Shown here: in pieces, positions 10,801 to 52,734 of the stretch
Numbering within the stretch: the first letter of the stretch is position 1
Layout of the letters: each line of letters starts with the position of its first letter
From: Enchytraeus crypticus
Lineage: Eukaryota > Annelida > Clitellata > Enchytraeida > Enchytraeidae
DNA length: 64,000 nucleotides
Assembly (NCBI GenBank): GCA_905160935.1
Contig: CAJHZI010000424.1
Span: forward strand, 825,001 to 889,000
Direction of reading: 5' to 3'
Program-made: the position numbers and the translations under genes
Notes under the pieces: generated by a model
The model's database searches: none
Told to the model about the DNA's origin: nothing
The model's input: the letters and a program-made list of their open reading frames with translations, nothing else

Positions 10801-13800
10801 TTGCTTATTTTTGTATGAGTGGTACTCCTGTGCTCCCGTAGGTATAAACATTCATGACTCTACCAGTATACTATCAGCCATTTTATTAGGCTAATACTAC
10901 ACATCTCAAATCTTATCCTGATGACTTTTTCTTATACTGACTAAGTGCCATTTTATGAGGAAATGTTTCAGAGGCTAGACTTTAAATGACTTTAATACGT
11001 CTAGAGCATTGAAGTATTAAATTAAAATAATAATATAAGTAGAATTTTACCCATTTTAAAATTTTACTCGTGTTGAGTTCGGGTTGCTGAAGAATAGACC
11101 AACTGTGGACTGCACCTGTCGTAATAGGCGTCAAAGCACTGAGATCCTAACCAACGTTAGAAATGGCATTTGGTTTGTGAGAACCTAGACTCCAGCAATT
11201 GCTACATAATTTTCTAAAACGAATGGAAGAAAGGTTTACGAATAGAGAAGGTCTATTCATATCCCGACCCTAGTTAAACTGGACTTCAAGGGAAATGATG
11301 AAGACGCTAACGACGGCGAATATCATTAAGAATTATAATATTAATTTTAAAATTTGTAGCTAAATTATACTCAATAGAATTAATATTATAATTTTTAGCT
11401 AAATTTTAATAGTATTAGATTTAATATTATTTATAATTATGCTAAGAATTGGAAAAAAAACTTTAAAAACTGGAGAATGTCTATTCGCATCCCGACCCTG
11501 GTTAAACTGGGATTTAAGGGAAGATGACGATGATGATCATGCTTAGAATTGTATGAAATATTTTCTGTTCTAGACCTCCTACGACAATCTTTGAGGTAAA
11601 CTCCACAAATAAGGACAAATCTTTTGCTGTAATGAAGGCCAAGCGTCGAGCCGACGACGACTACATAAGCAGAAAGAGGAGGAGAACTGAGATAGAGGAA
11701 AATTCTCAACATTCGGTCAATGAGAGAAAGAAAAAGAAAGAAGTGGAGAAGGAAGAGAAAGAAGACGGGCTCGAGGAAGCTGTGGCTCAGACATTCACCA
11801 CCGTCATCATGCCCAGGTATTTAATCACTTATTTCTATTTATATATTGACCTATTAATTTAGTTCATTCACTTTTTCCACAAATTTGTTCTAATTTTATT
11901 TTCAATTTTTCGTCTATTTTAGTTGTTATTCTACTATTACTTTATTTCTACTGTTATTGTCATTCATCCAATCATCCAATTCTATCAAGTTTCGGTTTCT
12001 ATTGTTCTTTTTAACGCTTAGATACAACGAGAAACGAGACGATGACGCTAGAAAGAAGAAGAAGAAAAAGAATCAGCCTGCAGAGGTGCCACTCGCAGCT
12101 GATCTAGAAGATGAGCCTGTTAGCAGTGGTAACACGGACGGCTCAACCGCTGTGGTGAAGAATTACTATGTGCCTAGCATGCCCAAGAACTACCACACGG
12201 AGCGAGGCTTGAGCCTTGGTAACACTGGCGGGGGAGCGCAGGGGGGTTTTGCCAGAGAGGCGCTGGACGCAGTGCTGGACCTGACCGGTGATGACGAGGC
12301 GGGGCTGAGGCAGCGCAAGAATCAACTCGTGTGGGACAGGAAGCGCAAGAAATTTGTGTCAGCTGGTACCGCTGCAGGTTAATCCAATCTGTCATGACGT
12401 CCCTGACATTGACTTATGGCGAGGAACCGGACGATATATTCTTATTGATTGATTGATCAGTCAGTAAATTAGTTAACCATCAATCAATCATTATCATCAT
12501 TGTCTTCCTTGTCAACCCTAGTTTAACTAGGGTCTGGATACGAATAGACCTTCTCCACTCCTCTCTGTCCCATACCATATCATCAGTCAATCATCATCAT
12601 TACCATCTACATCTTCCCTTTCAACCCTAGTTTAACTAGGGTCTAGATAGGAATAGATCTTCTCCACTCCTGTCTGTCCCATACCATATCATCAGTCAAT
12701 TTCCTATAATTATATAATTGAATGAAAACGAATGGAAGAGATTATAATCTCTTCCATTCGTTTTAGAAAATTTTGTAGCAATTTCTGCAGCCTAGGCGCT
12801 CTCCAGCCGAATGCCTTTTCTGACGTTGGTTTAGATCTTAGTGCCTTAATGCTTAATTATCTATCAATCAGTTATTTAATCAATCAATCGAGATCTGTGG
12901 AGTTGATGGTATTTCAATATTTTTATCAGCTGGTGTTACAGCAGGTTAAGCTCAGCACCTATCAATCAATATTCAAGACTTTATTAAATCGAGTTGAGTT
13001 GCTGTCGTCATATACAAATATTTTACTTTTGAATTTTTTTTACTGGTGTGGTAGTTTTGTTTGCTTCAGTAATTTGCAAAGTTGTACCGCTTGAATAGTT
13101 GGTAGCTTGCTAGATTGATACACAGGATAGCATTGTTTCAGAACCCCGCTGTAATGTCCGTGATTGTATCCTATGTGATATGAAAACAGGTGTTGAACTT
13201 CATACCTTTTTATCCGATGAACCTTTGTTACGTGCTTATATGATTCACTTTACTAATGTTTATCTAGTGTGTTAGGAGTTTGGTTGTTGTCTTTACTTGT
13301 TTATTTTATTGTTTTGATGTTTTAGTGTCGGAGAAGAAGAGGAAGAACGAGGCAGGGGTGAGGATAGAGGGGGGTAAGAAGAAGAAGCAGAGGGGGGACA
13401 TATACGCAGAGTGGGTGGAGAGAAACAAGGTGGGCCAGGCCGATGATGACGATGATGATGATGATGATAATGATGATGCTGAGGGTGGGAGAGGAAGAGG
13501 AAGGGGTAATTATAGCAAATCCTCGTCAGACATAGCTTATATATTATTATTTGGTATTATTTTTATTATTAATATTTATTAAGTTATTTTAAACTCACCT
13601 AATATACTAGTTATTTTTGCACTTTCATGTGTTAGTTAATTTTAACTTATACAATGTATGCACTGTGTCCATTATAACTGGCACCACAAATTGTGTTTAG
13701 AATAAAGTTATGACGAGCTGGCCGTTGTTTTTGTAATGTTCACAACTTGATCAGCAGCCAATTCTTCACATTCACACATAATGCTGCGTTAGCGGAAAGT

Positions 13801-14362
13801 GTGTGACGTGCTTTCTATTGTTATAATAGAGAATATTTGCGCTGCAAATAATATGCTTGAATTCCTATACTGTATTATAATTATTTTAATATAATTTGTT
13901 ATTTGACCCTACTCTTTCTGGAAAATCACCAGTATAACGTTCTCGTTTTTAAAGACATTCAAAGGAAATTTTAATTTGGAAGAATAGGCTGCTGCTCAAG
14001 TCCTGTAGACTTCAAGGACATCTCCTTACAACTTCATTGTAATAACAATTAGGGATATCAGTTACAAAAGACGCAGTGTATATTAAAATATATGTCATAC
14101 ATTTTATTGTCTCACATTTTATATACCATATTTCTGTTTTAACTTTCTGTATAAACAATATACAACTATATATTAAATTAAGGATAGGTATGGGAAATAA
14201 GCATAATTTAATAAGACGATATAATTAAGATTTAAATTTAATAGATACTAAAAATTTAATCTTGCGGGTGTTGATGTATATGATCTCGCCATGGATCGTG
14301 ATTGGTTGAGGAGGATGGTTGTAAGAGACTACTCTAGTGTCCACAAAGAGACGCCACAGCGT

Positions 14363-14447
<85 letters not shown>

Positions 14448-15743
14448 CACTGTGAGTAAAAAAAACATGTGCGCAGTCTCTCGCTCATAACTTTTGTATT
14501 AGTGAACCGATTTTTTAACTTTTTGCATATGTATAATCAGGAAAACATTTGCTATAAAATAACATTTAAAAAAGTGACTCTGTTAATTATTATTTTTGCG
14601 TTGAAGCAGTGCTTGGAAATATACGCGACTGACAATATTCAGTTTAAGTAAATCAATCGCTACAGAGTGTTTACAAATCCAGTGGAACTAACAATTAAAC
14701 ACACGAAACAAACAGTATAATCAGTTAATCTTCTCTCACTTAAAGAGGATTAACCTCTTTAAGTGAGAGAAGAGCTAGAGGAGATTTAATAGAAGTTTTT
14801 AAGATACTCACCGGCTTCAGCAAAGTTAACCATTGTATTTGGTTTAATTTATCAAACAATAGAAACGCAAGGGGACATATTTATAAACTTAGTAAATGTA
14901 GAAGTAGACTAGATTTAAGGAAATTTTTCTTTAGTCAGAGAGTTATAAATGCTTGGAGTAGTTTGCCAAGCGAAATTGTGGAAGTAGAGTCAGTGAATGC
15001 TTTTAAAAATAAATATGATAAACATAAGAACATGTAAATTAGATGTTAATTGTATGTTCAGGGTTATACATAGGCTAGGCCTATGTATAAATTTAGGATG
15101 TTGACATTAAGTCTGTATGATTTGATTAATACAAATTGGTTTTAGTTAAGAGCTTGATGGATCTTAAACAAGCATATAATTGCTTCCTGACTCTGTAATA
15201 TTATGTTATAATACAGCTACTGTCAACTGTCAAAGCATATGCTCAAAATGTCCTCCTTTGGTGCGAATACAAGCGCAGAGACGCTTGCGCTACTCATCTT
15301 TTGCGTTGTCAATGACAGATTGCTGCATGTCTTGCCAAACGTCCACCAGCCGTTGCTTCAACTCGTCCACGTTATTTATTTTCTTCTTTTCAGCGTAATT
15401 TCTCTAATAAGCAATCTAGCCCTCCCAGCATCCATTTTTTGTTGGAAATTCGGCAATCAATCAAAGTGCACCGTCACCCTTTAAGAGGTACTTTTTTTAA
15501 GAGGTAGTTTTTTATGAGTGCGTTATCTTCATTAGTAAACACCATTTTAAAATTTCAACAAAAACAGACTATGTTTTGTAAAATCGTCTGTTATTGTCTA
15601 AAATAAACCAGAAGTGTCACAAAAACTAGATTTAAGATTAGTACTTTTCTTCTTCTTTGTAATTTTGAAAATACTTTCAAAATCGGTTCACAATTGTCAA
15701 AGTTGTGCGCGAAATACTGCGCACATGTTTTTTATGACTCACA

Positions 15744-15787
<44 letters not shown>

Positions 15788-16408
15788 GTATATACCTTAT
15801 TGTACGTTTCTGTAATTCCGCGGCACACCTGTGTTGTTGCAGGTGGAGGAAGGAGAGGTAGGGGCTTCTCCAGTAGAGGCAGGCAGGATGACTGGAGCAG
15901 TGGTGGACGTGGAGGATCTGGTAGTGGAAGAGGCTTTAGTAGAGGTAGAGGTGGTAGGGGTGGTAGCTTTAGTAGGCATGGTGATGGTGATGGTGGTAAT
16001 TTTGGTAAGGGTCAAAGTTTCGGTAGAGGCGGCAGTTGTGGTAGAGGTGGCAGTTTTGTTAGAGGTGGTAGAGGTAGCAGTGTTGGTAGAGGTGGTAGGG
16101 GTAGCAGTTTTGGTGGAGGTGGTAGGGGTAGCAGTTTTGGTAGAGGTGGTAGGGGTAGCAGTGTTGGTAGAGGTGGCAGTTTTGGTGGAGGTGGTAGGGG
16201 TAACAGTGTTGGTAGAGGTGGTAGGGGTAACAGTTTTGGTAGAGGTGGTAGTGGTAACAGTTTTGGTGGGGGTGGTAAGAGAGCTGCTAAGAATGAGCTG
16301 AGGAGCAGTGAGCAGATTCTAAAGAAGAGAGCAGGGGAGGCGGCAGCTCAGGCCAGGCAGAGGAAGAGAGGTCAAAGAGGTCGTGGAGGTCAAAGCAGTA
16401 GACGTTAA
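4422..16408 (+). CDS. DDX54: ATP-dependent RNA helicase DDX54/Dbp10, 9 coding exons
   Basis: Join 4422-4865, 5429-5602, 6265-6645, 8058-8429, 10263-10555, 11574-11816, 12022-12377, 13326-13505, 15843-16408; all phases agree and give 1002 codons. DEAD-box motifs appear in order: Q motif (F41 to Q66), motif I ARTGSGKT (83-90), PTREL (117-121), TPGR (166-169), DEAD (190-193), SAT (221-223), FVAT (about 287), TDVAARGVD (338-346), [10 protein letters not shown] (367-376). A DBP10CT-like block (about 679-748, with SERGL-like HTERGLSL and WDRKRKKFV) and a C-terminal SSEQILKKR segment match DDX54 rather than other DEAD-box helicases. The family is nucleolar and acts in 60S ribosomal subunit assembly; vertebrate DDX54 also binds nuclear receptors. 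The protein is longer than human DDX54 (about 880 aa), mainly because of a Gly/Arg/Ser-rich repeat tail. A GC-AG intron is predicted after exon 5. The start ATG has A at -3; a 5' UTR exon is not excluded. Confidence 0.95.
5280..5354 (+). repeat. Decayed tandem copy of the DDX54 exon 2 acceptor and exon head
   Basis: The block ending gtttatgtagattgaggagcag duplicates the true junction block ending gtttatgtagattgaggaacag at about 5417-5440. The preceding intronic bases (gatatgacatctatacaggt against gatatgatatttataggtac) also match, so a unit of about 90 bp was duplicated. Confidence 0.8.
5429..5602 (+). CDS. DDX54: DDX54 exon 2 (codons 149-206)
   Basis: Acceptor tttatgtag, then [20 protein letters not shown]; contains TPGRL and [13 protein letters not shown]. 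Donor GAG|gtagga, phase 0. A decayed copy of this acceptor and the first roughly 16 nt lies 90 bp upstream. Confidence 0.93.
5684..5895 (-). mobile_element. 3' end of LINE family with (GA)n tail (copy 1)
   Basis: Starts with the (CT)n tail, then agtgcactgcctactggcag, the inverted 3' end. Its + sense encodes a C-terminus of the type [14 protein letters not shown] found at about ten other places here. It lies in DDX54 intron 2. Confidence 0.75.
6265..6645 (+). CDS. DDX54: DDX54 exon 3 (codons 207-333)
   Basis: Acceptor gcgtag, then [19 protein letters not shown]. Carries helicase motif III (SAT) and motif IV (TLVFVAT). GC content is clearly higher than in the flanking introns. Donor AAG|gtacat, phase 0. 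Confidence 0.93.
6961..7361 (+). mobile_element. 3' end of an R2-like LINE (restriction-like endonuclease type)
   Basis: Encodes [20 protein letters not shown] to SVQELF and stop at 7263, nearly identical to the end of the - strand copy at 49.6 kb. The 3' UTR ends with the motif cccagggccc...cccagggc, then A/AAT repeats. It is 5'-truncated at an (AAT)n stretch in DDX54 intron 3. Confidence 0.75.
7775..8035 (+). mobile_element. SINE-type repeat with RTE-derived (GAT)n tail
   Basis: Head gtgttgtgtccaggttgtttg, middle gggcattcgtttcatgagcg ccta, and tail accctggttaaactgggatt caagg with (GAT)n. Ends shortly before the exon 4 acceptor. Confidence 0.7.
8058..8429 (+). CDS. DDX54: DDX54 exon 4 (codons 334-457)
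   Basis: Acceptor catgtag, then [15 protein letters not shown]; carries motifs V and VI ([13 protein letters not shown]) and the [10 protein letters not shown] block typical of Dbp10. Donor AAG|gttcac, phase 0. An RTE/SINE tail ends about 25 bp before the acceptor. Confidence 0.92.
8465..8700. repeat. AT-rich tandem repeat (TTATAATAATATAC-like)
   Basis: Degenerate units built from cttataataatatac and tatattata, after DDX54 exon 4. No coding signal. Confidence 0.7.
9165..9615. repeat. 37-bp minisatellite, about 12 copies
   Basis: Units of the type tgttgtatcttttgtcctca plus ttgtattgtcgtattgc, 37 bp by direct counting. Long hydrophobic ORFs over it are artefacts of the repeat. Confidence 0.85.
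9868..10075 (-). mobile_element. SINE with gacgtccctgacat tail and (ATTG)n end
   Basis: Inverted: head at 10075 (ccgggttgtgtt...), middle ggcaatgggaagccacctca, tail gacgtccctgacattgcc and gaggaaccagacgttaaatt, then (TTGA)n at 9872-9885. Confidence 0.65.
10183..10262 (+). mobile_element. SINE tail forming the DDX54 exon 5 acceptor region
   Basis: ggggacgtccctgacatcat, gatgaggaaccggacgttaa acc, then the T-rich tail tttatttgtattattacag, whose last AG is the exon 5 acceptor. Confidence 0.7.
10263..10555 (+). CDS. DDX54: DDX54 exon 5 (codons 458-554 plus 2 nt)
   Basis: Acceptor tattattacag, then [17 protein letters not shown], the conserved RPAPS block after the helicase core. Ends TTC AG before a predicted GC donor (gcgagt). 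Joining to the next exon gives [13 protein letters not shown], spaced exactly as KNYRSRATIFEIN in human DDX54. The acceptor abuts a SINE tail. Confidence 0.88.
11068..11320 (+). mobile_element. SINE-type repeat with RTE-derived tail
   Basis: Head gttgagttcgggttgctgaa, middle gcatttggtttgtgagaacc, tail cccgaccctagttaaactgg. In DDX54 intron 5. Confidence 0.65.
11470..11540 (+). mobile_element. RTE-derived 3' tail fragment
   Basis: Only the last 70 bp: cccgaccctggttaaactgg gatttaaggg and a short (GAT)n. Confidence 0.6.
11574..11816 (+). CDS. DDX54: DDX54 exon 6 (codons 555-635 plus 2 nt)
   Basis: Acceptor gttctag, then a phase-2 start giving PPTTIFEVN; contains [12 protein letters not shown] and a Lys/Glu-rich basic stretch. 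Donor CCCAG|gtattt, phase 2. Confidence 0.9.
12022..12377 (+). CDS. DDX54: DDX54 exon 7 (codons 636-754 plus 1 nt), DBP10CT region
   Basis: Acceptor acgcttag. Encodes a run of lysines, then [19 protein letters not shown] and [11 protein letters not shown], the DBP10CT domain. Donor GCAG|gttaat, phase 1. A SINE tail fragment begins about 15 bp past the donor. Confidence 0.9.
12390..12475 (+). mobile_element. SINE/LINE tail fragment
   Basis: catgacgtccctgacattga ctt, gaggaaccggacg, then (TTGA)n. Begins about 15 bp past the exon 7 donor. Confidence 0.6.
12485..12840 (-). mobile_element. Rearranged RTE-tail SINE: tandem tail plus palindrome
   Basis: Two direct copies of the inverted tail (aaccctagtttaactagggt at about 12516 and 12632), then a perfect 40-bp palindrome (12725-12764), then an inverted middle block (cagcctaggcgctctccagc). 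Confidence 0.65.
12841..13325. other. Rest of DDX54 intron 7
   Basis: No gene or known repeat family visible beyond short (CAAT) runs. Confidence 0.4.
13326..13505 (+). CDS. DDX54: DDX54 exon 8 (codons 755-814 plus 1 nt)
   Basis: Acceptor gttttag. Encodes [31 protein letters not shown], then a run of nine aspartates from a GAT/GAC microsatellite and a first GRGRG motif. Donor about GG|gtaatt, phase 1. Aligns with the YKRDLYQKWKQKQ part of human DDX54. Confidence 0.85.
13506..14365. other. First part of DDX54 intron 8
   Basis: AT-rich; no recognised element until the TA microsatellite. Confidence 0.4.
14366..14440. repeat. (TA)n microsatellite at left mariner boundary
   Basis: About 75 bp of uninterrupted TA next to the left terminal inverted repeat. 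Confidence 0.9.
14441..15750 (-). mobile_element. Mariner-family transposon with terminal inverted repeats, interrupted by a LINE
   Basis: Left end tatacactgtgagtaaaaaa acatgtgcgcagt and the inverted right end share about 75 bp, both ending in TA repeats. The - strand near 15480-15230 encodes [15 protein letters not shown] and KGGHFEHML then stop, the C-terminus of mariner-type transposases. A stop replaces a Trp codon (E*RKRL). The catalytic core is missing and a CR1-like LINE sits inside. Confidence 0.8.
14731..15215 (+). mobile_element. CR1-like LINE 3' end nested in the mariner element
   Basis: Encodes [20 protein letters not shown] to [12 protein letters not shown] stop, close to the 59-60 kb copy. 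3' end aagcatataattgcttcctg ac with TTATG-type tail at 15190-15212. The 5' end is a 20-bp inverted repeat. Confidence 0.85.
15748..15786. repeat. (TA)n microsatellite at right mariner boundary
   Basis: About 38 bp of TA next to the right terminal inverted repeat. Confidence 0.9.
15843..16408 (+). CDS. DDX54: DDX54 exon 9 (codons 815-1002), RGG-like tail and stop
   Basis: Acceptor gttgttgcag. Encodes roughly 140 residues of Gly/Arg/Ser/Phe repeats of the type [13 protein letters not shown], then [11 protein letters not shown] and a basic end ([13 protein letters not shown]). The repeats come from a 27-bp-like GGTAGAGGTGG minisatellite. Stop TAA at 16406-16408. Confidence 0.88.
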
Positions 16409-21949: not shown

Positions 21950-24900
21950 CTACACAATCAATCAATCAGTCAGTCAGTCAATCAATCAGTCAGTCAGTCA
22001 GTCGGCAGTCAGTTAGTCAATCAAACAATCAATCAATCAATCAATCATTTCAATAATTGTAATAAATTCATTTACATTCTATAGTTCTGTCAAATGGCAC
22101 CTCCAAGGTATATATTGCTGCTATTCATAGTCTGCCATCACGTTCATCTATAAATTTACGTTCATCCATCGGCTGGAGCCAATGGCGATGTCGGTAAGAT
22201 ACTCGACCGTGGATCAGTATGTGCGGGGTTCAAATCCTGGGATCGCCCGTCACTGACGTCACTTTCGAGTGGGGAAACTGACGTTAACATTAGCTTAATC
22301 AGCGCTTTTAAAAGCTTTAACGATGTATCAACAGGTTGATGCCAACACATAGACTAACACTTTCCCACAACAACTACAACCTATAGTTTGAGGATCTGAG
22401 ACATCGGAGGACTTTTGTCTTTCCTTCCTCAGTCCTCGGTGCCCAAATCTTTAAATCCTTCATTCTTACAAAAACAATGTTTATTAAAATTCTCGGTTGG
22501 TCTACTTAATATATTACTGGAATTAAAACAGGATTATAAAGTTACTTAGACTAAAATAAAGAACATGTACCAATATGCTTAACAACCACGATTATACAAT
22601 ATAACGATGACTTAATCGCTGGTTATCTAATGAAGATCATTCAGAGACGTCTGAAACAGAACATTGTTTCTATTATATATATACACACCCTGCATATACA
22701 GAGATGGCAGAAAATAAATAGAGATGGTAGATGGACAAACTTGTTAGACTTGGATAGAGTCTATTCATATGCTGACCCTGGTTAAACTCGGATTTAAGGG
22801 AAGATGATGATGACGATGATGGTAGCAGTGCCGTCCCTGAGTCAGGACAGAAGATTTGGCTGGATGTGTCTAAGGAGGAAATAAATATGTGAATGTTACC
22901 TTGAGTTGCGTGTTGATGCGTTGATTCTTCTCCACACGAGTCATCCTGTCCTCCTCAGGTCTGGGCACCACCTCGTTCTCGTTGTAGCTCAACGTGTGAG
23001 CTGTGCAACAACAACAACAGTGAGTCATGTAGCAACAACAACAACAGCGAGTCATGTAGCAACAACAACAACAGTGAGTCATGTAGCAACAACAACATGT
23101 CATCTTCAAGTCTGGGCACCACCTGGTTCGAATTACAGTTCAGACTATGAACTGCGCAGCACCAAAAACAACAATATCAACAGTGGCCTTGGACATAACA
23201 GCAGCAACTACTCAACTCCTCAGAATCCACGTATACATGTATGATAAGGCGATCAGATTCTTGATGAAACAGAGCAAGCAGTCTGAGCCAAGATATAAAG
23301 TCCTCAGAGCCTCGGTCTAACGCCAAAACATTTTTTAAATTAAGTAAACATATTATTTGATTGATTTACTGACTGATTGTTTGATGGCACTACAAGTTGA
23401 CCGACAGCTTAATTGATTTAAACAAAGCAAGCTGATAGCTTTACGAAACTGACAGACGAATTGATTAATAAGTGGCGAAGTCTGTAAGATACTCGACCGC
23501 GGATCGGTATGTGCGGGTTCAAATCCGGGGCTCACCCGTCACATATATCGCTTTCGAGTGAGGAAACTGACGTTAACATTAGCTTTACCAGCTTTTTAAT
23601 TGATTGATTGATTGACGGTCTGACGGATCGACACGTACTATGTTCTCGTGCATCATCATCGTAGTCGTTATCTTCAAACATGTGATGAGAGGACACGCTG
23701 TGTGACGCATTGTGTGACGACGACACGTGATGTGACGAGGCAGCCACGACGGGTGGTGGACGAGCCAGTGCTTCCTCCAGCGCCCTCTGGTGCTCCTCCA
23801 TGTCAGCGCGTGCTCGCTGCAGCTGAGCGTGCAGCATGCGCGACTCCTCCTCTCTCTCCTCTGCCTCGCGCATCCTTCTCTCCAGCTCAGCGTGCGCCTC
23901 CGCCGCTTCCCGCTCCTACATACAATAGCACACCGTCGTTCATGACAATATCTAGCATCGTAAATATGTGGGCAGGAATTTATATTCAGTTCCATTTATG
24001 TTTCGTAGAGGCATAGCCTTTGTGACGTCTGAAAGGGCATTCAGTTGGTGAGCGCCTAGGCTCCATAAATTGCTACAAAAATTTTAATGAATGGAAAAGT
24101 CTCAAATAGAGGATTGGCTGGTGGTGTGGTGTAGGACATAGAGGATTTGAGTGAGTCTATTCGTATCCCGTCCCTGGTTAAACTGGGATTCAAGTGAGGA
24201 TGATAATGATGATGATGAAAGGCATAGCTTTTGTGATGGGAATGTAGGTTTACTCCTTCTGGTTAATGGTTAGAATTAAACCTATCGACTGCTCACATAA
24301 GAGGCAAATAACATAGATTTGACAGAGCATCAGAGTTCAGTGATGCGCTGTCACTTTCAGAGATCTAGCAGCAACACTGGTTGTGGCTCACGTTGTAGTC
24401 TTAGACTGATAAAATTCACAACAGCATATAACGAGCACATAACAAATTTATATTCTACACATACACAGTTTTAGTGGTGAAAACGTTCCACAGCTATCTG
24501 AACTTTTATATGCGAAAGTATAGACACAGGACAAAAGTATCATCTCAAATACACACTATTTTTTAGCACTACTTATGTTGGTATATTCCCACCAAATACT
24601 ACTCAGCGCCAAACATTTCACGCCAGTAAAATTAACACTTCTAATCCTACAGATTAAAATATTTCATTTTTCATTTATGTACGACTACATTAACAACAAA
24701 AAGACCAATAATACTTCACTTTTCTGCAACCTCTACTTGTGTTCAAACGTGCTCTCTTAGTCAACAATATAACTATGTAAACACACATTATAAACACGCA
24801 TTAAAGTGAAATGATCAATATGTCGATATCTATCATTTTTAATACGACATGTTTAAACCGTTAGGCACTTTAGACCATTTTCCGTATAACCAGTCCAGTG

Positions 24901-27042
24901 AATGTCCGAGATTTTACTCTCAGATCAGCGCGGCTGGGATTTGAACCCACGATAGTTTAATTCATCTCAGGATCTGTCATATAAAACTTCATGACGTTAC
25001 CCCTACGCTATTCAGACATTCTAAGGAATCTTTTAAGGCTCTGGACTGTAGCACCGGTAGAGCTTACCTTACGCTCTCGCTCCTCTTTTTCCATGTAGGC
25101 AGCCTGCTCCGCCATCTGCCTCGCCTCCTCCGCTCTCCTCTGAGCCTCCGCCAGCTCCTGCCTCTCTCTCTCCGCTCTCTCCATCTTCTCCTCCAGGCTG
25201 CGAGCCATTCCCTGACTCCTCTCCAGCTCTACACAACAACAACAACATCATCATCATCGTCATCATCATCATCATCATCATCTTCTCCTCCAGGCTACGC
25301 ACCATTCCCTGACTCCTCTCCAGTTCTACATAACAACAACAACTTTAATTTAAACATTAAGCAAATCTAAAGCTAGTAAAGCTAAGGTTAACGTCAGTTT
25401 CCTCACTCGAAAGCGAAGTCAGTGAAGGGCGAGCCCAGGATTTGAACCCCGCACATACTGATCCGCGGTCGAGTATCTTACCGACTTAGCCACTGGCTCC
25501 AGCCGATCCAGATCTGTGCAATCTACTATATCACGACTCTCTTTCTCCCTCTCTTTCTATCTCTCTCTCTCTCTCTCTCTCTCTCAGTCTCTACCTTCTC
25601 CAAACTACAACCCATTCCTTGGCTATTACCAGTTCAACACAACAACACCAACAGCAGTAGCATACATGACAACATTTAGCAGTTCTATTCATAAAATATT
25701 TGATACTTCATTTCTCTCGGCCTATTTCTCTTACTTTTCATCCTCCTATCACTCAGAACTGCCCACCATATTCACTGATTGTCAGCCATTTCACATCGAA
25801 TAACAAAAATTACAATTGAAGTTACAAGTAAGTTACAGTAATTCACGATTATATCCAGTCTACACAGATTAACTGCATAAGTCAACAGTCAAGTGATATC
25901 TAAACGACGGTTGAATGAGTACGACATATGCTAAGAAGAAGAAGAAGAACCAAAGTCAGGACTTACCAGATCTCGCTTTCTCAAAGTCAGACTCGTACTG
26001 CTGTAGTCTGCTCTCCAGCTCCTTTCTCTTGCTCTCAGCTGCCTCCCGCTGCTCTCTCTCCTTTATCAGCAGCTGCCTGATAATATCAGTACAACATCAT
26101 GTGATAACATCAGTACAACATCATGTGATAACATCAGTACAACATCATGTGATAACATCAGTACAACAAGACACTTTATCAGCAGCTGCCTGATACAACA
26201 ACAACAACAAAACCTTAATTAGAGTGATTCTGTAGTTCGTGAAAACATTAAACAATACGGTGCCAAATCCAATACAATGAGAAGAGTGTGGGGTCCAAAA
26301 CGGTGCAAACCAAAATCCGGGAAATCAGTCCAAAGAGGGATACTAGTGAAATGGAGGTTTAAGTGTTGGTTTCAGTTCCTGTGCAATAGGCAGATTAGAG
26401 ATGTCAAAGAGAACAGCCTTTAACCCCATATATGAAACTGTTCATACAGAGGGAGATGATGATCAGGAAAAGAAGAGGAGGTGCGCAAAGTGTAAGGAAG
26501 AGAATTCCAGATCTGTGAAGCTGTGTTCTGGAAGGAGCGCTTGGAGAGCTTACTGCATGAAGAAATGCTTGATCACTTAAGAGTAATTAACTTAGAGGAC
26601 CTAGTAGATGATCGCATAGATGAAGGCTGTCTCAATTGTAATAAGTGGGACATATAACGTTATTCCGGGGTAGTGATAGCCTGTATCTTTGTCCGGGGTA
26701 GTGATAGCCTGTACGTTTGTCCGGGGTAGTGATAGCCAGTAGGTTATCTGTAGATAACCTGTATCTCAGAGAAGCTGCCTTGTAAACAATGCATTCTCTG
26801 ACTTTGAGCCAGTGCAGAGACTTCAAGAGAGGAGTCACGTGGGAGTGCTGAGAGCGGCGGAAGAATGCACGTGCAAGGGAATTCTGGATGAACTGCAACC
26901 TGTCGATCTCACAGCTTGGGAGATTTAGAAACAAGGAGTTACAGTAGTATAAATTGGATTGTACGAGAACAGCTCCAATAGTGCAAGCGGTCTCAAGGGA
27001 TAAAATACAAAGTTTGCTCTAAACATTTTATGGCCACCATAT

Positions 27043-27124: not shown

Positions 27125-30100
27125 TATTTTTTATATTAAGAATAATAATCAATCAATCAATCAATCAGTAAGAATTTAACTTCCGGTTCCTCACCATAAG
27201 GCAATGTCAGGGACGTCTTTTGCAGAATCTACACAAACAGGCGTCAAAGCACCACACGATGACGACCGAGTATATAGAGAACACAAAGAGAAAGAAAGAT
27301 CGAAACAGCGCAAGGCCAACAGCCACGACAACAGGGTCAAAATTTAGACCTATGGCGAAAAGAGATGGGTTTTAGCTTGCCAAGGAAAGTACCAATACAG
27401 TTACATGATCGAAGATCTTGTGGCAGAGAGTTCCATATTGTCGGAGCAGAAAACATGAAGAAGCGTCTGCCCCTGGCAGATTTAATATAGAAATATGTTT
27501 TATAGCCAATTGAGAAGTTGCGAAACAATATACAATAAATGATATTTAATATAATTCCCGCGTTGTGTCCGAGACTGATGAAAAGACCAACCGTAACTGC
27601 ACTTGTCGTAAGAGACGACTGATTAAGAACTGGGGAAGGCTACGGAAACCCATCTCAGAAGTCACATTATTCCAAAACTATTGGCTAAATTGAGGTGTCA
27701 ATAAGCATATTCTTTTGTGAAGGCATTAACTCGTCGATCGATGGAATGCTCCCTACGGAGCATATGAGTAAGAATACGTACCTTGGACTTGCCACCTAGG
27801 CCGAACTCTGACTGAGAGATTTCATATAATATTAGTATGATGATCTTTAATCATAATAATAATGGCGGATAAAATGCAATTTGCAAGGAAAAAGAGGCAG
27901 AGGCAGACCGAGATTAGGTATGTTAGACGACTTACAGACCCACTCATATGTGGAAATGAAAAGGAAAGCGGAAGACAGAGAAGAGTGGAGGCGTTATATT
28001 CCATGGACATACCAGTAGGCAGTGCACTAAGAGAGAGAGAGAGTCTAACCTCTCGGCCTGCTTGCTCATCTTATCGTCCCTGGCCTGGGCCTTCATCTGC
28101 TGGACCTCGATGGAGTCAGGTTTACGTCTGCGCATGTACAGCTCGTGGTTGCCCATGCACAGCGCCAGGATGCGCTTGTTGATGCGCAGCCGTGGCGCAA
28201 AGAACACAAAATCCTGCAGCAGCAGAAATAGTAAATCTCAACTCAACTTCTCAATATGTGTAAGATGTCTAGAAATATGTACCGTGGACCTGCTACTTTG
28301 CAAATGAATACGATAAAATGAGGATTTAATGACCGTTTCCTCAACTGAAGGAGATGTCAGGGACGTGTATAGCAGAACATGCAAATACTAGCAGTTCTAA
28401 CCATAAAACATACTTGATAAAGCGTAGATCAAAGAAAAAGCAAGAAAAAAAAACTACAGTCCATTTGACATCAGAAGATCAGTGTGACTCTAGCAAACAG
28501 ACAGAGCTCTACATTTACAACTAAATAAGTTGCAATTTGCTAATTACAAATATTTTTATTAATTATAATAACTTCAATTATTCTTTAATCAAGAAGAGAA
28601 ATTTCTAACAACTAAATTACGCAATCTTTACTTAAATGACACTAAACAAGTTTGACGTCCATTTCCACAAAGGATACAGCTTTCTCATGCGCACCCGTGC
28701 AACTACTAGTACAAGTAAAATAACTATAGACCGTTCTATAGACTGCTCTAGAACAAAAGCAAACGCTATTGTTACTGCGATCTAAGGTGTGAGTCAGCTT
28801 TCACGCTCCATACCAAGCACTCCATTGTTCAACAGGTTAAAGTTAATCTCTTCATAGATGGCTATGTCTTATTAATGCTTTATATAGTCTATAACTAGGG
28901 AAAAATGTAGCCTAAGAAATGGTTTCCCGTTGCCTTCCTCAGTCCATGTTAAGTCACTGATGAGACACGTGCAGTTATCGGTCGTCCAGATACAACACGG
29001 GAAAACATATTTCAAGTCTCAGTAAATATCTCAGTAAACGCAGCTTTTAAGAGAAATGGCAATACTCGTAACTGTACTGCGTGCAAAATGGTGTTCCATC
29101 GCATTTCTACTTAAATACACTTCATGACTAATGTGTAAAATAGTACTATATTGTGTTATAAGTCTTATCAATATAAAACTTGCATCGTCATATTTTGTGT
29201 TTAGAATTAAATAGACAATATCATATAAATCTTCCGCCTGATAAATAACAAAGTTAGTATTATATACCAATAACTAAAACTTTTAATAAAAACATCTTAA
29301 CCAGTCTCTCAACAGCAAACATACAAAATAGAATTTTCAGATATTTTTAATATTTTACAAACCGGAGACTTTTTGTCGATGGGTTTAATCATAAACTTCT
29401 TGTCACTAAAAGAAATGTTTCTGATTTCGCTCCACGGAAATCCAATCTTAGGCGTCAATCTGTTAATAGAATATTCATAGAATTTCGATCAATTTAACTG
29501 AAATTCACACGTGCCCCTGTTTGAGATCAGGTGAAGTAGAATTAAAGAGCCATGTTTTCGGAAAATATGTCTAAAGCATATATTGAAAACTTCATTACAA
29601 TACCCCAGCAATAGTAACTTTACTTACAAAAAAGCCTCACAGTGTGGCAAATAATGGCATAACACAAGGAAGGTTAGATGAGTTTAAGATCCACTCGTAT
29701 GTTGCCGTAAAGAAGAAAATGGAAGATAGAGACGAGTGGAGGCTTTATATACCATGGACCTGCCAGTAGGCAGTGCACTAAGAGAGAGTGCTGCAAATGG
29801 GAAACCCTTGATATAAGATAAGCAGTTAGGGATTGATCGGTCAATGACCTAATTAATTATGATAGACTTAGTTTGATGGACAGGAATTTTTTCTTGGACC
29901 AGCCAACTAGAAGTGCACTGAATGACAGTTAAATTATATAAAGTAATTTCAAGTATATCAGTATAAAGTGTAATAATTGCAGCAGATATTTCAAAACAAA
30001 TGTGTAATCTTCATCACAAAACAAAAGTATTCACCAATTACCATTTAGTCATATACCGATAATTTCTGCTTCTTGCAATAATATCTTAATTAATTATTTA

Positions 30101-31644: not shown

Positions 31645-31680
<36 letters not shown>

Positions 31681-34600
31681 CACACACAATAATTGAATAA
31701 AAAAAAATATTAATATCATTCACTATTAAAAAAAACATTTAATCAATAACCAGGTCCCTCTCTATCTCTCTCTCAACACACACACAATCATTGAATAATA
31801 AATACAATATTAATATTATTCAATATTAAATAAAACATTTAATCAATAAGCAGGTCTCTCTCTCTCTCTCTCTTAATCAATAAGCAGAGCTCTCTCTCTC
31901 TCTCTCTTAATCAATAAGCAGAGCTCTCTCTCTATCTCTCTCACACACACACACAATCATTGAATAATAAATAAAATGTTAATATCATACAATATTAAAT
32001 AAAACATTTAATCAATAAACAGGTCTTACTTCATCATGCCCTTGTGCTCAGCGTACCACGTGACAATTCTAGTCTCCCACTGATCTTTAGATAGCTGATG
32101 CTGGTCATACACCCTACAACAACAACAACAACAACACGGGACTGGCATTTAAATCTACTTCATTCATTGCAGATCTGCAGAAATGAAACAACAACAACAC
32201 GGGACTGCCATTTAAATCTAATTCATTCATTGCAGAGCTGCAGGTAGGCAAAAACCAATAATATACAAAAATAACAATATAACGCTATTAAAAAGCTAAT
32301 ACTGCAAAAAATAAAAGCTAATACGCTAATAGTGCAACAAATGTAAAAATGTATGTTAGCCAGTGAATGCCATTAAGATTAACAGTTAGCATCAAATAGA
32401 TCATGTGATCGAAATGCATAAAAAATGTATAAACTCATTTGAATTGACATTCAGTAGCTGTGCATAATAACAGAAAACTGAAACATTTAGTCAATAAGTC
32501 GTTCTGATATGCAACTAACTATTTTGAAGATATTCGATATCGTCATGGATGAACAAAGCATTGTTCATATAGTCAATCAGAATAAGCTCACCTCTGAGGC
32601 AGCATGCGCTCGTTAATGAGGAAGCCAGGCTTCTGCGTGTCAGGTTTGTAGTCGCTGTACTTGGCCTGCAGAGCATAGGAAGCCAACAACACTGAGGTCT
32701 CAGGTGAACAGTAGTATTCATCACTTAGTATAGCCTCCTTGACTTGTAGGTAGAACATACGCTACAATACAATACAATACAATCCAATACAATACTGTAC
32801 AATACTATACAATCCAATACAATACAATACAAGCAGTAGTACTCGTTACTTAGTATAGCCTCCTTGACTTGTAGGTAGAACATATGCTACAATACAATAC
32901 AATCCAATACAATACTGTACAATACTATACAATCCAATACAATACAATACAAGCAGTAGTACTCGTCACTTAGTATAGCCTCCTTGACTTGTAGGTAGAA
33001 CATGCGCTGTGTGCATACAATACAATACAATACAACATGATATGACAGGATTAAGTACAAAACAATACAATGCAGTACAATACTAAAAAATACAAATAGT
33101 AATGATCATCATTCTGTTTAGGCTTCTTTCCATGCAGATAGAACATACAAAAGAATTTTCATTCACATAAACAATAGAAGCCGCACAGGCTTTGGCTTAT
33201 ACTTATGCAGCTTATACTCAGATCTAATGTTTAATGTTTAACAGAGTATATCACACAAGGGTATCTCTATATTTTGAAACAATTAAATAAACAGTAAAAC
33301 AAAAAGTATACAATAAAAGACACAAGTAACAAGCTAAAGTACCAAAATCTGAGAAATTTAATTGACTTAAAATAAAAGCAGAAATTCAGCTTCGGATTTA
33401 CTTCAATGCCTAAGTAAGGCATTTTTAGGTTTGCCAGTCCTTAGACCTTTTAAGTGATAAAATAAGATAAATTTATACACGGGACTAGTCAATAAATTCA
33501 AAACCAGCCTGAGAAATACATAGCTGGTGTCAATTGTGTTATTCTCTGCGCTTCTAGCTTCTATAACTTTACTGTTCTAAAGATTATTAAAGGTTACTAT
33601 TCTATTATTAAGCAAATCAAATATATATAGGTGAGTAGTGCTGGATATTGATAAGTTGAGGCGCTAACTGTAGCTATAATTATAAATAAAATAATAATAA
33701 TAATGATGATAATAAGAGTAATAATAGTTGTAGTAGTAGTAATAATATTAATAATAATATTAATAATAATAATAATAATATTCATAATAATAATAAAATA
33801 ATTATAATAATGTCTTATGTTTCTCTCTAGACCTAGCATAAGTTAATCAGTGGCGACCACTAAACAACTCTACTAACAAACCTGCGTTACTTCTTGAATC
33901 AGTTCTTCAGTTACATCCTCGCAGAAGAACTACACAGTCAACAGAAGATATAGTCAGAAAGTTTGTAACGTTTTACACATATAACCTGACTAAGTTTTAA
34001 AATAAACAGAAATCATTAAATCACATGATAAACAGTCTAAACTTCCAGATAATATGATTCAAAACAAAAACACATCATAAATAATATGTAAATCAGTTTC
34101 CATGGTTAGTATCATAAAATGCCAATTTCAAATGAGACGTTAAACCTTTTGATCATTGTTAAACTAAACTAAGACTAAAATAATTAAAAAAACTAAACAG
34201 TATTTAGTCATTTAGTCACAGTGGAGAACTAAGCCACAGTAAAATTGCTGTCAATGGTCATTTGGTTAAAGTCCTCAGCTTAGAGTTAAATGATTCTAGA
34301 TTCGAGGGCAAGATAAATACTAATTAAAATACGCTACCTTTACTCTGAACTTGAACTGAAGTGGCGTTTCTTTCTTGACATCTTGACTCATCACCTATAA
34401 GATGTAGTCAATCAATTAATATATCAGAAATAATCAACAAAATATAGTAAAATAGTACATTAAACTATTGCTAAACTAATAAATTAATAGTTTGGTAAAT
34501 AATTCAGTTGATCATACTTTTAGTTAATGCTAAACAAGCAAATATATTAAGCTGGTCTACCTAAAAGCTATTCAGCTAATTTCTAAATAACTAAAGACAA

Positions 34601-43690: not shown

Positions 43691-46600
43691 GGGAGAGAGT
43701 GAGGAAAGGAGAAGAGGATCAAAAATTACAAATTATATACGGGTAGTATAGAAATATTTTGATATACAAGATTAGATTTTCAAAATCTCATAGTGCTAGT
43801 GTTTATAGTAGGCTGTATGGAATTATAGTGTATAACTAATGGAATTGAATAGCTGGTTTGGGTCTCTGAATTTACTGGGTTCTCTTGCATTAATGGTTAT
43901 CAATGCAGTCACTATATACTTTAACTCTCTTTCTCTCTCTCCTAGTGCACTGCTTACTTGCAGGCCCATGGTATGTAAAGCTTAGTTGGACGTAAACAAC
44001 AGACGATTTGTTTGGGAGGAGCATGATTGTTTAGAAGAGCTATGACTATAGATTCAAATTATAGACAGAAGCTAGAGACAGAGGATTCTGGATTACAAAA
44101 GAGACCAGAAGAGAAAATATCAGAAGAAAAATGAGCAGTATTTATAGAAGATAATTTCTCTATTGCTTTAATATTACGAGATTGAGAGTTGACAATTTGA
44201 GATGGTATTTTACAAGTTACCATTCTGTGATCACAAAGAAAGAAATCAGTAAGAGAGCATGAAGACATGGAGGATGTGGATTTGGTTATAAGTAAATCAA
44301 GGATATGACCGGAAGTTGTGAGTAGATGATGTGATGTGCTGCTTTAGGTCGAATGTGTCTAAAAGCGTTAAGAAAGTGGAATCATAAGGATCGTTAGAGT
44401 CATCAACATGAAGATTAAAGTCACATGTATACATCTAACTGTGTTGTCATATGTAACTGTGATACTAGTTATTCTCACATTATTAAAAAAATTTAAATTT
44501 ACTTAAAAATATAGAATTTATTTATAGCAAATTTGTTAATAGTAAGTGAAACGTAATCAATAATTAATAGTGTATGCCTATTCTGATGCAGATTGCTATA
44601 TGTACTTTGCTTATATTTTATTTTCTTTAGCCTTACCGTCAGCTACAGTACATGATTCTAGATCAACAGTATCTCACAGTGCCCCTCTGTACCACACGTA
44701 AGCTAATTGATCATTTTGTATTTGATTTGTAGATGCCATAAATTGTAACTTCTATTTTCATAATACAATGTTTCTGTCGGTTCAGTTGGGATCCGAACGT
44801 TTTGCCTGTCACAAGTCTACCATGTTTGCTATCAACTGCGTCATCCATGCAGTGCGTAATTCTTCTGATTTAAAATCTTCTTAATTTGTTGTATGGAATA
44901 ATATTTTTACTTGTTATATTGATCCTGCAAAATAATTAATATAATCATGTATAGATATTCACATTCATATATTCATTTATTTAGGACTGGCAAACAGACA
45001 TATATTATATACATAAACAGACATATATTCGTGTCTGTATATATGCCAATATATGTAGATGACTGAATTGTAGTTAAGTTTTGTAGGGTAAACCAAACAT
45101 ACACTTAGCTTCTCAAACGAAGCTTCTAATCATTTATAGAGAAAGGCAATGAGAAACAACATTACCATTTTTAACCATGTTTTGCAAGCTAAGTTTACAT
45201 TAAAGTAGCTTGTGAATCAGTTAATTGTTTTCTTAAGAGCTTATCATGGACTTTGAGTACTTCAGACCTGTCATTTGATGGAAAATTTTCATCTTTTCCC
45301 ACCGTGGATATACTCTATCTGGAACCAGTGGCGATATTGGTAAGATATTCGACCGCTAATCAGTATGTGTGGGGTGCAAATCCTGAGCTCTCCCATGACT
45401 GACATCACTTTCGAGTGAGGAAACAGACGTTAACGTTTGCTTTTTTAGCTTCTGTCTTGACAATTTTTGATCACTGGCTTTCATTTTACATCTTACTTCT
45501 CCTCAGTACGTTTCGTTTGCAGATTAGTTTGAATGAATTATGTGTGCTATGGGGACGTCCCTGACACCATTCTTGGATGAGGAAACGCATGTTTATACTT
45601 ATTTTTTATTATCTCTCTCTCTTAGTGCACTGCCTACTGGCAGGTCCATGGTACATAACGCCTCCACTCTTCTCTGTCTTCCGCCTTCCTCTTCATTTCC
45701 ACATATGAGTGGGTCTTTAAATCAGCTAACATACCTAATCTCGGCCTGCTCCTGCCTCTTTTTCCTTCCATTCTACCTTCTATGACCTCTTTTAATAGAC
45801 CTTCCCTCCTTAGAATGTGTCCTATTCATCTCTTCTTTCTATTTCTTAATATTTTTTATTATCAACACATGTAAATGTTAAATTGAAAATGTTAGTCGAA
45901 GCTGAGTAAGGCTTTGGGGGCCCACCTCGTCATATGAAAAATCCCCCAAGAATAATGGTATATCTAAAGGAATGCTATAGATGATTTAAAGATCCACTCT
46001 TATGTTTTATATGAAGAGGAAAACGGAAGATAAAGATGAGTGGAGGCGTTATATGCCATGGACCTGCCAGTAGACAGTGCACTAAGAGAGAGAGAGAGAT
46101 TATCAACACTTCAGGAAGAGAAAGAAAGGGGAGAGAGAGAAGTGTCTATGAAGATGTTGATATATGCATAAACTGTGGTTGAATCTATTTAACACTTCTT
46201 CCTGATAAATGATTCATTGATTGAGTTTATTGATTGATTGTAGGCTGCTGCACAAAAAGCAACGTAAGTATCAATTTCATTCGACTAAATGTTTAACTAA
46301 TTGAATTAATTACTTTCATTATTTGGAACTATTACTATGAATGATGATTAATTAGATACTTATCAATTAAATATTTTGACAGAATTTATGTTCGGAGAGT
46401 ACAACATTTATCCAAGCAGCTTAAATGCTTATTAACGTGTATGTATGAACACTTTCCGATGCTGAGTGTCCTACATATTAGAAAAATATCAAATATTTTT
46501 CTTCATCACCATTCTAATTGGGAACTCTTAATTTTTATTGTTGTAATACATGCTAATGTAGTTATCACCCCTGGTTGAGGAAACGGACGTTAAACATTTA

Positions 46601-49087
46601 TTATTAATATTATTATACCTTTATTATGCTGAGGAAGGCATAGGAGGCTCACCTCGTCATAAGCAAATTCCCCCAATAAAATGGTATATAACAACAAGAA
46701 TGAGCATTGCTAGGTGACTTAAAGTTCCACCCATATGTACATGTAGACATGAAGAGGAAAACGGAAGACAGAGAAGAGTGGGGGCGTTGGACCTGCCAGT
46801 AGGCAGTGCACTAATAGAGAGCGAGAGAGAGTAATACATGCTTTACACTATCATGTAATTCAATATCTTCTTGCACATCATTATTATTATTATTATTGTA
46901 GCACATTGCGATCATCATTTACTGTGTTAAATATGATAATAAATTTCTGTTTAATTAAACAGGTGATATTAATGCCAAGCTAAACAGTGACGTCATTGCG
47001 CTGAACAGTAAAGAACTGGAAGCAGCTGGAAGGAGCTTGAGGGCAACGGCTCAGCAGCTGAATAGATCTAAGCAAATAATACAGGTTTGTTTGTAATGTA
47101 AACATCAGTGTGACCACTCTTCTAGAAAACCTTCAAAGGTCAGGGAATTTGAAAGTGGTCAGGAAGTAGAATTTAGCATATTTAACTCTGTATACAAAAT
47201 CAAAGCACTTTAAGGCGCATACAGTTTAAAAAATTACATAAGCTATGTTGGTAATGAAAAAAATTAATATGCTCCTAGTGGCTATAAAAAAGAGGCAGGG
47301 GCCGGCCGAGATTAGGTATGTTAGATGATTTAAAAACCGACTCATATGTAGAAATGAAGAGGAAACCGGAAGACAGAGAAGAGTGGAGGTATTATATACC
47401 ATGGACCTGCCTGTAGGCAGTGCACTATGAGAAGAGAGTGGCAATACTTCAGACCCAGTAAAATTGTGAAAATCAGCTTATCTTCAGGAAATCATCTCTG
47501 GCATTGTCGTTCAACATAGAAGTCGATGCTGCGATGGCAAAAAATTATCATGGCAATCTGGATAGTCAGGGAAAGTCAGGGAATTTCATGTGGTCTGGAG
47601 AGTGGTCACACTGAATTATGTCGTACAGTGTTGGTTGTATTTTTTGTCGCTTTGTGCAATCAAATTTTAATAAAATCAAATGTGTTATAAAAAGTTCCCG
47701 ATCTTTAGCTCCTCAATAATTAATTGTAATTTTAAAAAAAGAATTTGTATCTAAGCTGAATGCTTTTGCTCGATCATTTTATCTTTTCATTGTATTACTT
47801 CTTAGATTCACAATATTTCTTGTTGTCATGGATGATTGCGCCGTAAAGGCTATGTAATTACAGTATAATGTTTGTGAGTTCTCGCTGTGACTGACCAAAA
47901 GTAGCATGAGTTTAGGTCCTGCCTTCAGTAGCATTTGGCATTACGAAAAATCGTTTAGTCAACAAATTTTGATTTTGATTGGTCATAGTTATGTTTCTGT
48001 TTCTAGTGCATTGCCTACTGGCAGGTCCATGGTATATAACGCCTCGAAGCTTGTAGACATTACATACCATGGACCTGCCAGTAGGCAGTGCACTAATAGA
48101 AGCATAACTCCTACTGCACTGCCAGTGCACTAAGAGTTGTGCTTCTATTAGTGCACTGCCGTAGAGCATAGAGTTATGCTTCTATTTTTTTCGACTTATT
48201 CTTCTATTACCTATTATTTTTCTATTATTTTCAGAGTTATGCTTGTATTATTAAGGTGTATAAAATCGTAACATTTTTTAAAGGAATCAAATCTTTAATC
48301 GATGTGAAGGCTCTTTAAGGAACACGAACACAGCATCTAAGTAGGAATGCGTACCTTGGGCTTACCACTTGGCAGAACACTTGTAGAAAGTGATTATGCT
48401 ATTTAGCGGCTAATTTTATGTAAAGGTTATATAGAGTAGAGAGCAGATATTCAAATAAACAACTAATATACAACATGACAATTAATTCAACTTGGCGCTT
48501 TATTCTCGTTTGATTGTGTGAGACAGATAGGGGATTGACTGATGATATGGTGTGAGACAGAGAGGAGTGGAGAAGGTCATTTCGTAGCGCAAAGGGAAAA
48601 TGATGATGATGATGATGATGATGATGTTTATGATGATGATTATGATGATGATTATGATGATGATTATGATGATGATTATGATGAAGATTATGATGATGAT
48701 TATGATGATGATTATGATGATGTTTATGATGATGATTATGATGATGTTTATGATGATGATTATGATGATGTTTATGATGATGATTATGATGATGTTTATG
48801 ATGATGATTATGATGATGTTTATGATGATGATTATGATGATTTGATGATGTTTATGATGATGATGATGATGATGATAATAATGATGATGATGATTAGTTT
48901 ATTGATTGATTGAGTGATTGATTTTATATTGATTATACTACAGGAGACTTGTAACACGATGAGGTTGACAACAAATGATTTATTTCAACTCGAGGACAAG
49001 ATAAACATTGTGGCATCTTGTACGTTACTGCCTGATATACACATTCCTCTGCGCTCTCCTTCTGCAGTTGCCTCTAACAACATTTAG
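42383..49087 (+). CDS. BLOC1S3: BLOC-1 complex subunit 3, 5 coding exons
   Basis: Join 42383-42548, 44631-44697, 46244-46263, 46963-47084, 48944-49087; 172 codons (human 202). The N-terminus has two GEAxExD motifs (IAGEAPESDDEE and VMGEAEESDVED) like the VPGEATETDSE and VAGEAAETDSE repeats of human BLOC1S3. From LLHKKQRDINAKLNSDV to INIVASCTLLPDI the predicted protein aligns with human without gaps over about 78 residues, ending in the family signature (L/I)xIVASCxLLPDI. BLOC-1 acts on endosomal tubules in biogenesis of lysosome-related organelles; loss of human BLOC1S3 causes Hermansky-Pudlak syndrome type 8. The exon 1 donor is the least certain boundary: gtcagt at 42549 is used, and upstream gt sites in the same phase are possible. 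Confidence 0.9.
42780..43690 (+). mobile_element. LINE of the (GA)n-tail family, degenerate RT ORF and 3' end
   Basis: Pieces such as LQNTIDDLNIIELQYGMKIN, IEKTKVMTVCRKGG and a CETWTLIEEDIRKLEALEFW segment follow the order of a LINE RT C-terminal half; many stops. The 3' end (tgccatgtaccttcaatagg cagtat) carries 50 bp of (GA)n at 43640-43686. Confidence 0.75.
43920..43985 (-). mobile_element. 3' tip of (GA)n-tail LINE
   Basis: (CT)n then agtgcactgcttacttgcag gcccatggta. Confidence 0.6.
44030..44430 (-). mobile_element. L2/CR1-like LINE endonuclease domain fragment
   Basis: Inverted frames give CDFNLHVDDSNDPYDSTFLT, FDLKQHITSSTHNF, LDLLITKSTSS and CDHRMVTCKI, the C-terminal motifs (GDFN, SDH) of AP-type LINE endonucleases. 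Frameshifted. In BLOC1S3 intron 1. Confidence 0.7.
44631..44697 (+). CDS. BLOC1S3: BLOC1S3 exon 2
   Basis: Strong acceptor ttttctttag, 67 bp encoding LPSATVHDSRSTVSHSAPLY, donor CACAC|gtaagc, phase 2. Low conservation but both splice sites are strong and the phases fit. Confidence 0.75.
45318..45450 (+). mobile_element. tRNA-derived SINE, family 1 (copy 4)
   Basis: agtggcgatattggtaagat, ggggtgcaaatcctgagc, tail gaggaaacagacgttaacgt. Confidence 0.75.
45530..45605 (+). mobile_element. SINE tail fragment
   Basis: ggggacgtccctgacaccat, gatgaggaaacgcatg; ends directly at the next LINE fragment. Confidence 0.6.
45606..45850 (-). mobile_element. 3' end of (GA)n-tail LINE
   Basis: Inverted copy: (CT)n, agtgcactgcctactggcag gtccatgg, then gaggcaggagcaggccgaga in the inverse. 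Confidence 0.75.
45890..46105 (+). mobile_element. 3' end of (GA)n-tail LINE
   Basis: gaagctgagtaaggctttgg, gatgatttaaagatccactc, gccatggacctgccagtaga cagtgcactaagag and (GA)n. Head-to-head with the preceding copy. Confidence 0.8.
46244..46263 (+). CDS. BLOC1S3: BLOC1S3 exon 3, a 20-nt microexon
   Basis: Flanked by acceptor gattgtag and consensus donor gtaagta. Encodes (T)LLHKKQ(R). Including it restores the frame from exon 2 (phase 2) to exon 4 (phase 1) and aligns with LLQLRLAESQARLDHDV in human with no gap. Confidence 0.85.
46555..46830 (+). mobile_element. SINE tail then (GA)n-tail LINE 3' end
   Basis: ttgaggaaacggacgttaaa c with (TTA)n, then tgaggaaggcataggaggct, ggacctgccagtaggcagtg cac. 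Confidence 0.7.
46963..47084 (+). CDS. BLOC1S3: BLOC1S3 exon 4
   Basis: Acceptor ttaaacag, encodes DINAKLNSDVIALNSKELEA... NRSKQIIQ, donor CAG|gtttgt, phase 0. Predicted coiled-coil helix. Confidence 0.9.
47280..47435 (+). mobile_element. 3' end of (GA)n-tail LINE
   Basis: gagattaggtatgttagatg, gaagacagagaagagtggag, ccatggacctgcctgtaggc. Confidence 0.75.
48003..48175. repeat. Foldback of (GA)n-tail LINE tip
   Basis: tgcctactggcaggtccatg g (48010-48030) and ccatggacctgccagtaggc a (48067-48087) form an inverted repeat of about 35 bp; further inverted pieces of the same tip follow to 48165. Confidence 0.8.
48515..48900 (+). repeat. RTE tail followed by 300-bp (GATGATGATTAT) array
   Basis: ggggattgactgatgatatg gtgtgagacagagaggagtgg, then (GAT)n interrupted every 12-15 bp by TTAT from 48601 to 48895. 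Long MMM or DDD ORFs over it are artefacts. Confidence 0.85.
48944..49087 (+). CDS. BLOC1S3: BLOC1S3 exon 5 and stop
   Basis: Acceptor actacag, encodes ETCNTMRLTTNDLFQLEDK and INIVASCTLLPDIHIP; stop TAG at 49085-49087. The acceptor lies about 45 bp after a large GAT/GATT repeat block. Confidence 0.92.
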   Translation, partial: ETCNTMRLTTNDLFQLEDKINIVASCTLLPDIHIPLRSPSAVASNNI

Positions 49088-52700: not shown

Positions 52701-52734
52701 GTCATAACCTTTCTGTTTTCAGTGCAGGATTGCT

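Follow-up and report, generated by a model that had tools for sequence, protein, structure and literature searches.

What has happened to an exon whose beginning, acceptor included, is met again in the intron that precedes it? The question is raised by exon 6 of an ERM (ezrin/radixin/moesin) gene on the minus strand of a 64-kb stretch of Enchytraeus crypticus DNA, the whole of which we call the window. The genome around the window comprises 524 Mb in 802 contigs, the GC content of the fetched region is 36%, and neither Rfam nor a tRNA scan found a match in the window. The stitched ERM protein matches FERM_N, FERM_M, FERM_C and ERM_helical, all above their cut-offs, and the best solved-structure match of its FERM part is radixin (E 7e-163). 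Thirteen exons, E2 to E14 in the numbering of the first-pass annotation, were placed; this set excludes exon 1 and the 3' end of the gene.

38113-38030, minus strand: E2
36883-36788, minus strand: E3
34394-34338, minus strand: E4
33929-33882, minus strand: E5
32761-32592, minus strand: E6, 170 bp, with a GT donor at its end; the duplicated head is its first 53 bp (32761-32709)
32113-32030, minus strand: E7
30502-30356, minus strand: E8
29459-29363, minus strand: E9
28213-28050, minus strand: E10
26076-25967, minus strand: E11
25228-25068, minus strand: E12
23915-23660, minus strand: E13, whose end lacks a verified donor
23000-22900, minus strand: E14

At these coordinates the lengths of E4, E5 and E6 sum to 275 bp, which is the length of a single exon in human ERM genes; there are therefore two extra introns here, either gained in this gene or lost elsewhere.

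The first-pass annotation had reported three occurrences of the exon-6 head, roughly 55 bp long, together with its acceptor, and the minus strand of 32592..33070 bears this out. Three ungapped 55-bp copies lie at 32709-32763, 32834-32888 and 32954-33008, the second and third sharing 93% and 95% identity with the first, and the exonic part of each extends for 53 bp from the acceptor. As had also been claimed, only the innermost copy runs on into the full exon, 170 bp to its GT donor, and the copies are set apart by a pentanucleotide repeat, (GTATT)n.

32764..32833, minus strand: (GTATT)n spacer between the inner and middle copies
32834..32886, minus strand: middle exon-6 head copy, acceptor TGTAG, with two amino-acid changes relative to the working copy
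32889..32953, minus strand: (GTATT)n spacer between the middle and outer copies
32954..33006, minus strand: outer exon-6 head copy, acceptor CACACAG, with three differences from the working copy, all synonymous
33095..33150, minus strand: decayed fourth exon-6 head copy, 72% identical, with no AG near its boundary

TRF describes the array as a 120-bp unit in 2.4 copies with 94% matches (32709-33003), and the acceptors are spaced 125 bp apart from inner to middle and 120 bp from middle to outer. Over the 53 nt from the acceptor, the inner and middle copies differ at four positions, and the outer copy differs at three from each of them. Chance is excluded as the source of these resemblances (E 2e-16 for the outer copy, 2e-15 for the middle one), and the fourth copy, further out at about 33095-33150 and running into a T/G repeat of the same type, retains an E value of 1.8e-6. 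We also considered a dispersed element carrying the exon-6 head. A genome search with the 519-bp exon-6 locus returned at least 141 matches, and among the 40 of 520 candidates that were scored, the full-length match was the locus itself only. Across 18 loci compared, ten of them from this search, the 55-bp head was found at E<0.001 only at its own locus; the matches at the ten consist of the (GTATT)n microsatellite, and a weak 21-bp match (E 0.08) is all that the 18 loci offer elsewhere, which leaves a dispersed element unsupported.

Is exon 6 alone in this? Four other exons had been credited with the same pattern, and we find it at three, E11, E12 and E14, since the head of exon 7 is absent from the repeat that lies next to it. 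The E12 head copy is 93% identical (E 7e-13) and is accompanied by an additional, older copy at 72%. At E14 the head copy is 76% identical (E 2e-7). At E11 the 16 exonic bases are copied exactly, which gives an E value of 0.005 when taken alone, and with the intron side they form an identical run of 22 bp.

25279..25325, minus strand: outer exon-12 head copy, acceptor ATGTAG, followed by (ATG)n and (TTG)n
25567..25663, minus strand: additional copy of the exon-12 boundary, decayed to 72% identity, AG lost
23093..23170, minus strand: outer copy of the exon-14 boundary, 73-76% identical, separated from the working exon by a 27-bp TTG-rich minisatellite
26174..26195, minus strand: outer copy of the exon-11 boundary, identical over 6 intronic and 16 exonic bp, separated from the working exon by a 24-bp minisatellite
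32124..32255, minus strand: 63-bp tandem repeat before exon 7, containing CTGCAG and not the exon-7 head
31657..32026, minus strand: tandem arrays with (GA)n after exon 7, beginning at about intron base +4, with the donor and the exon tail uncopied

Exon 7 was rejected as a fifth case because the 63-bp tandem repeat in its upstream intron is without its head. Tandem arrays lie near its splice sites in both flanking introns (31657-32026 and 32124-32255) with exon sequence left uncopied.

In all four affected exons the repeat unit joins the intron end, AG included, to the opening 16-55 bp of the exon, arranged as in the genome, and what lies between copies is microsatellite or short minisatellite sequence. 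At E6 and E12, decay has gone furthest in the copies that lie farthest out. The ERM boundary repeats are very probably minisatellites of the 'mirage' type, a name said to come from a 2002 paper, in which a stretch spanning an intron-exon boundary is duplicated in tandem at the DNA level. What we observe has the marks of such repeats: the unit spans the boundary at E6, E11, E12 and E14, a single copy belongs to an intact exon, and the spare copies carry splice signals. Microsatellites at the acceptors probably seeded the ERM mirages, on seeding statistics that come from this one gene. A simple-repeat content of 30% or more marks the final 60 intron bases at five of the 13 ERM acceptors (E6, E7, E8, E12 and E14); on the donor side it marks the first 60 intron bases in two of 13 cases, and among window bins the proportion is 8%. 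However, a simple seeding link is opposed from two sides, since E7 and E8 have such repeats with no head copy, and the E11 head has been copied although the last 60 bases before its working acceptor hold no masked simple repeat; seeding is thus not one-to-one. We infer a course of events in which slippage or unequal exchange, anchored in the simple repeats beside acceptors, would generate boundary copies, selection would retain the innermost copy as the working start of the exon, and the outer copies would drift as intron, losing their AG with age, either ignored by the spliceosome or yielding occasional transcripts with a premature stop.

The strength of the spare acceptors also speaks against this explanation. 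By a small weight matrix built on 23 acceptors, under which true acceptors left out in turn score between -3.9 and 13.6 (median 5.5), the inner copy has no advantage as an acceptor. The three exon-6 sites are nearly level at 5.5 (inner), 5.3 (middle) and 4.9 (outer), and at E12 the outer site scores 7.8 and the inner 8.5. The outer sites are the higher ones at E14 (8.8 against 6.1) and at E11 (10.8 against 6.9, the latter belonging to the AG at 26072, which is the best within 8 nt on the inner side, and not to the working one at 26076). With spare scores that rival or exceed the inner ones, acceptor sequence by itself gives no reason why the inner site should win. Since its young acceptors match the real one by this simple score, exon 6 constitutes a natural test of how the spliceosome chooses among near-identical acceptors. 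Each of the five outer acceptors with an AG still in place leads to a stop or a frameshift when the sequence is read on into the true exon: the outer E6 acceptor meets a stop after 39 codons, and the extensions from the middle E6 copy (125 bp), E12 (97 bp), E11 (113 bp) and E14 (151 bp) all shift the frame. An in-frame extension of the exon is ruled out for all five, and because the unit lengths disrupt the frame, read-through use of these acceptors would be unproductive. At E6 and E12 the AG itself has gone from the copies that have decayed most. The first-pass annotation had seen the copies either as decoy splice sites or as the beginning of exon duplication. The former is plausible from the sequence, in that the young copies keep their AG, score like true sites and may serve as decoy acceptors; the latter is unsupported, since a stop or frameshift from every AG-bearing copy is not what exon duplication in progress would produce.

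If the copies act as decoys, selection might be what maintains them, with the outer acceptors diverting splicing into unproductive transcripts and thereby tuning ERM expression. We consider this improbable. The retained AG and true-site-like scores of the young copies, the stop or frameshift that follows all five AG-bearing acceptors, and an outer exon-6 copy that departs from the working copy only synonymously would all suit it, but young tandem copies retain an AG by default, and the loss of AG in the most decayed copies, like the amino-acid changes in the middle E6 copy, is what unselected repeats would be expected to display. In amphioxus, moreover, the available text of PMC3087553 states that RT-PCR on mirages suggests regular splicing.

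Still less probable, in our judgement, is that a head copy stands on the path to an extra exon, with exon duplication or intron gain under way. The 275 bp that E4, E5 and E6 share out between them, and that form one exon in human ERM genes, do indicate extra introns here, which may have been gained or may have been lost elsewhere. A model of this type has been proposed for amphioxus (PMC3087553, as far as the text available goes), but the ERM copies are without a donor, their frames are broken and their AG is lost with age. A fault of assembly is as hard to credit. A precedent exists in the BflGb6 array, which the portion of PMC3087553 available reports as aberrantly assembled in a genome draft; in the ERM gene, on the other hand, the copies differ from one another at 3-4 of 53 sites, copies of no more than 72% identity exist, four exons are affected with different spacers, and no second full-length locus appeared among the 40 of 520 candidates scored, so that an artefact is unlikely. 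Mirage-type duplication remains our preferred explanation.

Are the heads of exons copied and their tails spared? It had been proposed that equally common tail copies would speak against the pattern, and a local check found them not to be so: heads are copied at 4 of the 13 placed ERM exons and tails at none, the latter count resting on 12 verified donors because the end of E13 is unverified (one-sided Fisher p 0.048). Neither heads nor tails were copied in 15 exons of neighbouring genes, which from their translations we take to be MESD-like, DDX54-like, a GPCR and lectin-like; for several of these exons the boundaries are approximate, and at the ends of DDX_5 both AG and GT are missing. Pooling the two sets gives 4 of 28 heads against 0 of 28 tails (p 0.056), and ERM heads compared with neighbour-gene heads give p 0.035. 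Local duplication is common in the DNA of the window, a local copy with a score of at least 14 being found for 7.3% of 1500 random 45-nt probes and for 8.2% of GC-rich ones (n=499). The same score is reached by 4 of 12 scored ERM heads and 0 of 12 tails (E4 being unscored), and against the random-probe background the heads have a binomial p of 0.012-0.018 (n=13, with E4 taken as a miss). All these p values are modest, and it was the finding itself that drew attention to the exons. The head-only bias, with p at about 0.05, is suggestive but thin.

Several observations run against a strict restriction to heads. Tail copies occur at two or more unverified predicted exons, in the region 52737-52905 (57 bp, 88%) and at 58089-58148, and head copies at one or more, 15268-15411; these stand among the predictions listed by an automated finder over 264 kb (the window and contig positions 625001-825000), and we used no counts from them, since its training had shifted towards G-rich sequence and tandem arrays or LINE-like remnants hold many of the 194 predictions that were scanned. 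The array after exon 7 begins at about intron base +4, close to the donor, which is itself uncopied. In amphioxus, the available part of PMC3087553 describes a mirage at BflGb9 that duplicates an exon end.

A 27-bp minisatellite occupies 52715-53415 of the window (about 26 copies, 90% matches), and many short fragments with a recurring translation, presumably resembling the 3' end of a LINE, lie at 27863-28070, 29587-29856, 45634-45825, 47226-47477 and elsewhere. The contig sequence upstream (625001-825000) is rich in minisatellites and in (GA)n tracts whose translations are RERERE-like, and includes three stretches of N. On the plus strand, a DEAD-box helicase gene at about 4356-16388, which by eye we take to be DDX54, holds a long tandem-repetitive stretch (15900-16277), and no head or tail copies were found at its approximate exons.

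The asymmetry is the only surprising part of the finding, and its basis is four exons of one gene. In its boldest form, to which we give a slim chance, boundary duplication in this lineage would be one-sided: simple repeats at the 3' ends of introns would keep sending copies of heads upstream while tails stayed single, and decaying heads would move outward from the exons as if on a conveyor, with spare acceptors arising continually and introns growing at their 3' ends. Should head copies exceed tail copies genome-wide, the simple repeats at intron ends would constitute a mutational hotspot specific to acceptors.

Two known processes resemble the ERM repeats in part. Whole-exon tandem duplication also leaves extra exon-like copies in an intron, and such a copy would contain both splice sites; the ERM copies, in contrast, end 16-55 bp into the exon, before the donor, with the frame broken. 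In the intron gain described in the available text of PMC2891723, exonic sequence holding a proto-splice site is duplicated in tandem, which likewise alters the number of splice sites at exons, but the two copies of an exonic AG/GY there supply the two ends of a new intron. The ERM unit holds an existing intron end and forms no new intron, and the four ERM heads begin with CGT, GCA, AGC and CTC, not with GT.

The closest counterpart is provided by the amphioxus mirages of Adh3, the globins BflGb6 and BflGb9, and PGBD5, as described in the portions of PMC3087553 and PMC3902484 available. The accounts there share with ours the tandem duplication of an intron-exon boundary, a few copies of varied divergence, spare AG sites and units of comparable size (10-160 bp in amphioxus, 97-151 bp in ERM), and the layout of the BflGb6 mirage, intron end plus exon start, is that of the ERM copies (PMC3087553). 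In the same account, Adh3 units measure 10-72 bp and are somatically unstable, RT-PCR suggests regular splicing, and a model of intron gain is offered. For lancelet PGBD5, splice-site repeats of 60 bp and 108 bp are given as 2 versus 7 and 3 versus 6 copies in two genome versions, of which resequencing is said to confirm the original (PMC3902484, in the text available). The differences, within what these sources recount, are that either exon end can be duplicated in amphioxus, as at the 3' boundary of BflGb9 exon 2, whereas only heads are copied in ERM; that copy-number variation and RT-PCR are reported for amphioxus; and that four exons of one gene are affected in ERM, with simple repeats as spacers. 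In the literature searched, whose coverage left out most subscription journals, we noticed no report of mirages outside cephalochordates. The ERM case is a real and well-formed example of a kind already described. It extends the boundary-spanning minisatellites by an instance that involves several exons and copies of graded age, and two of its features, the restriction to heads and the clustering in one gene, deserve a genome-wide count.
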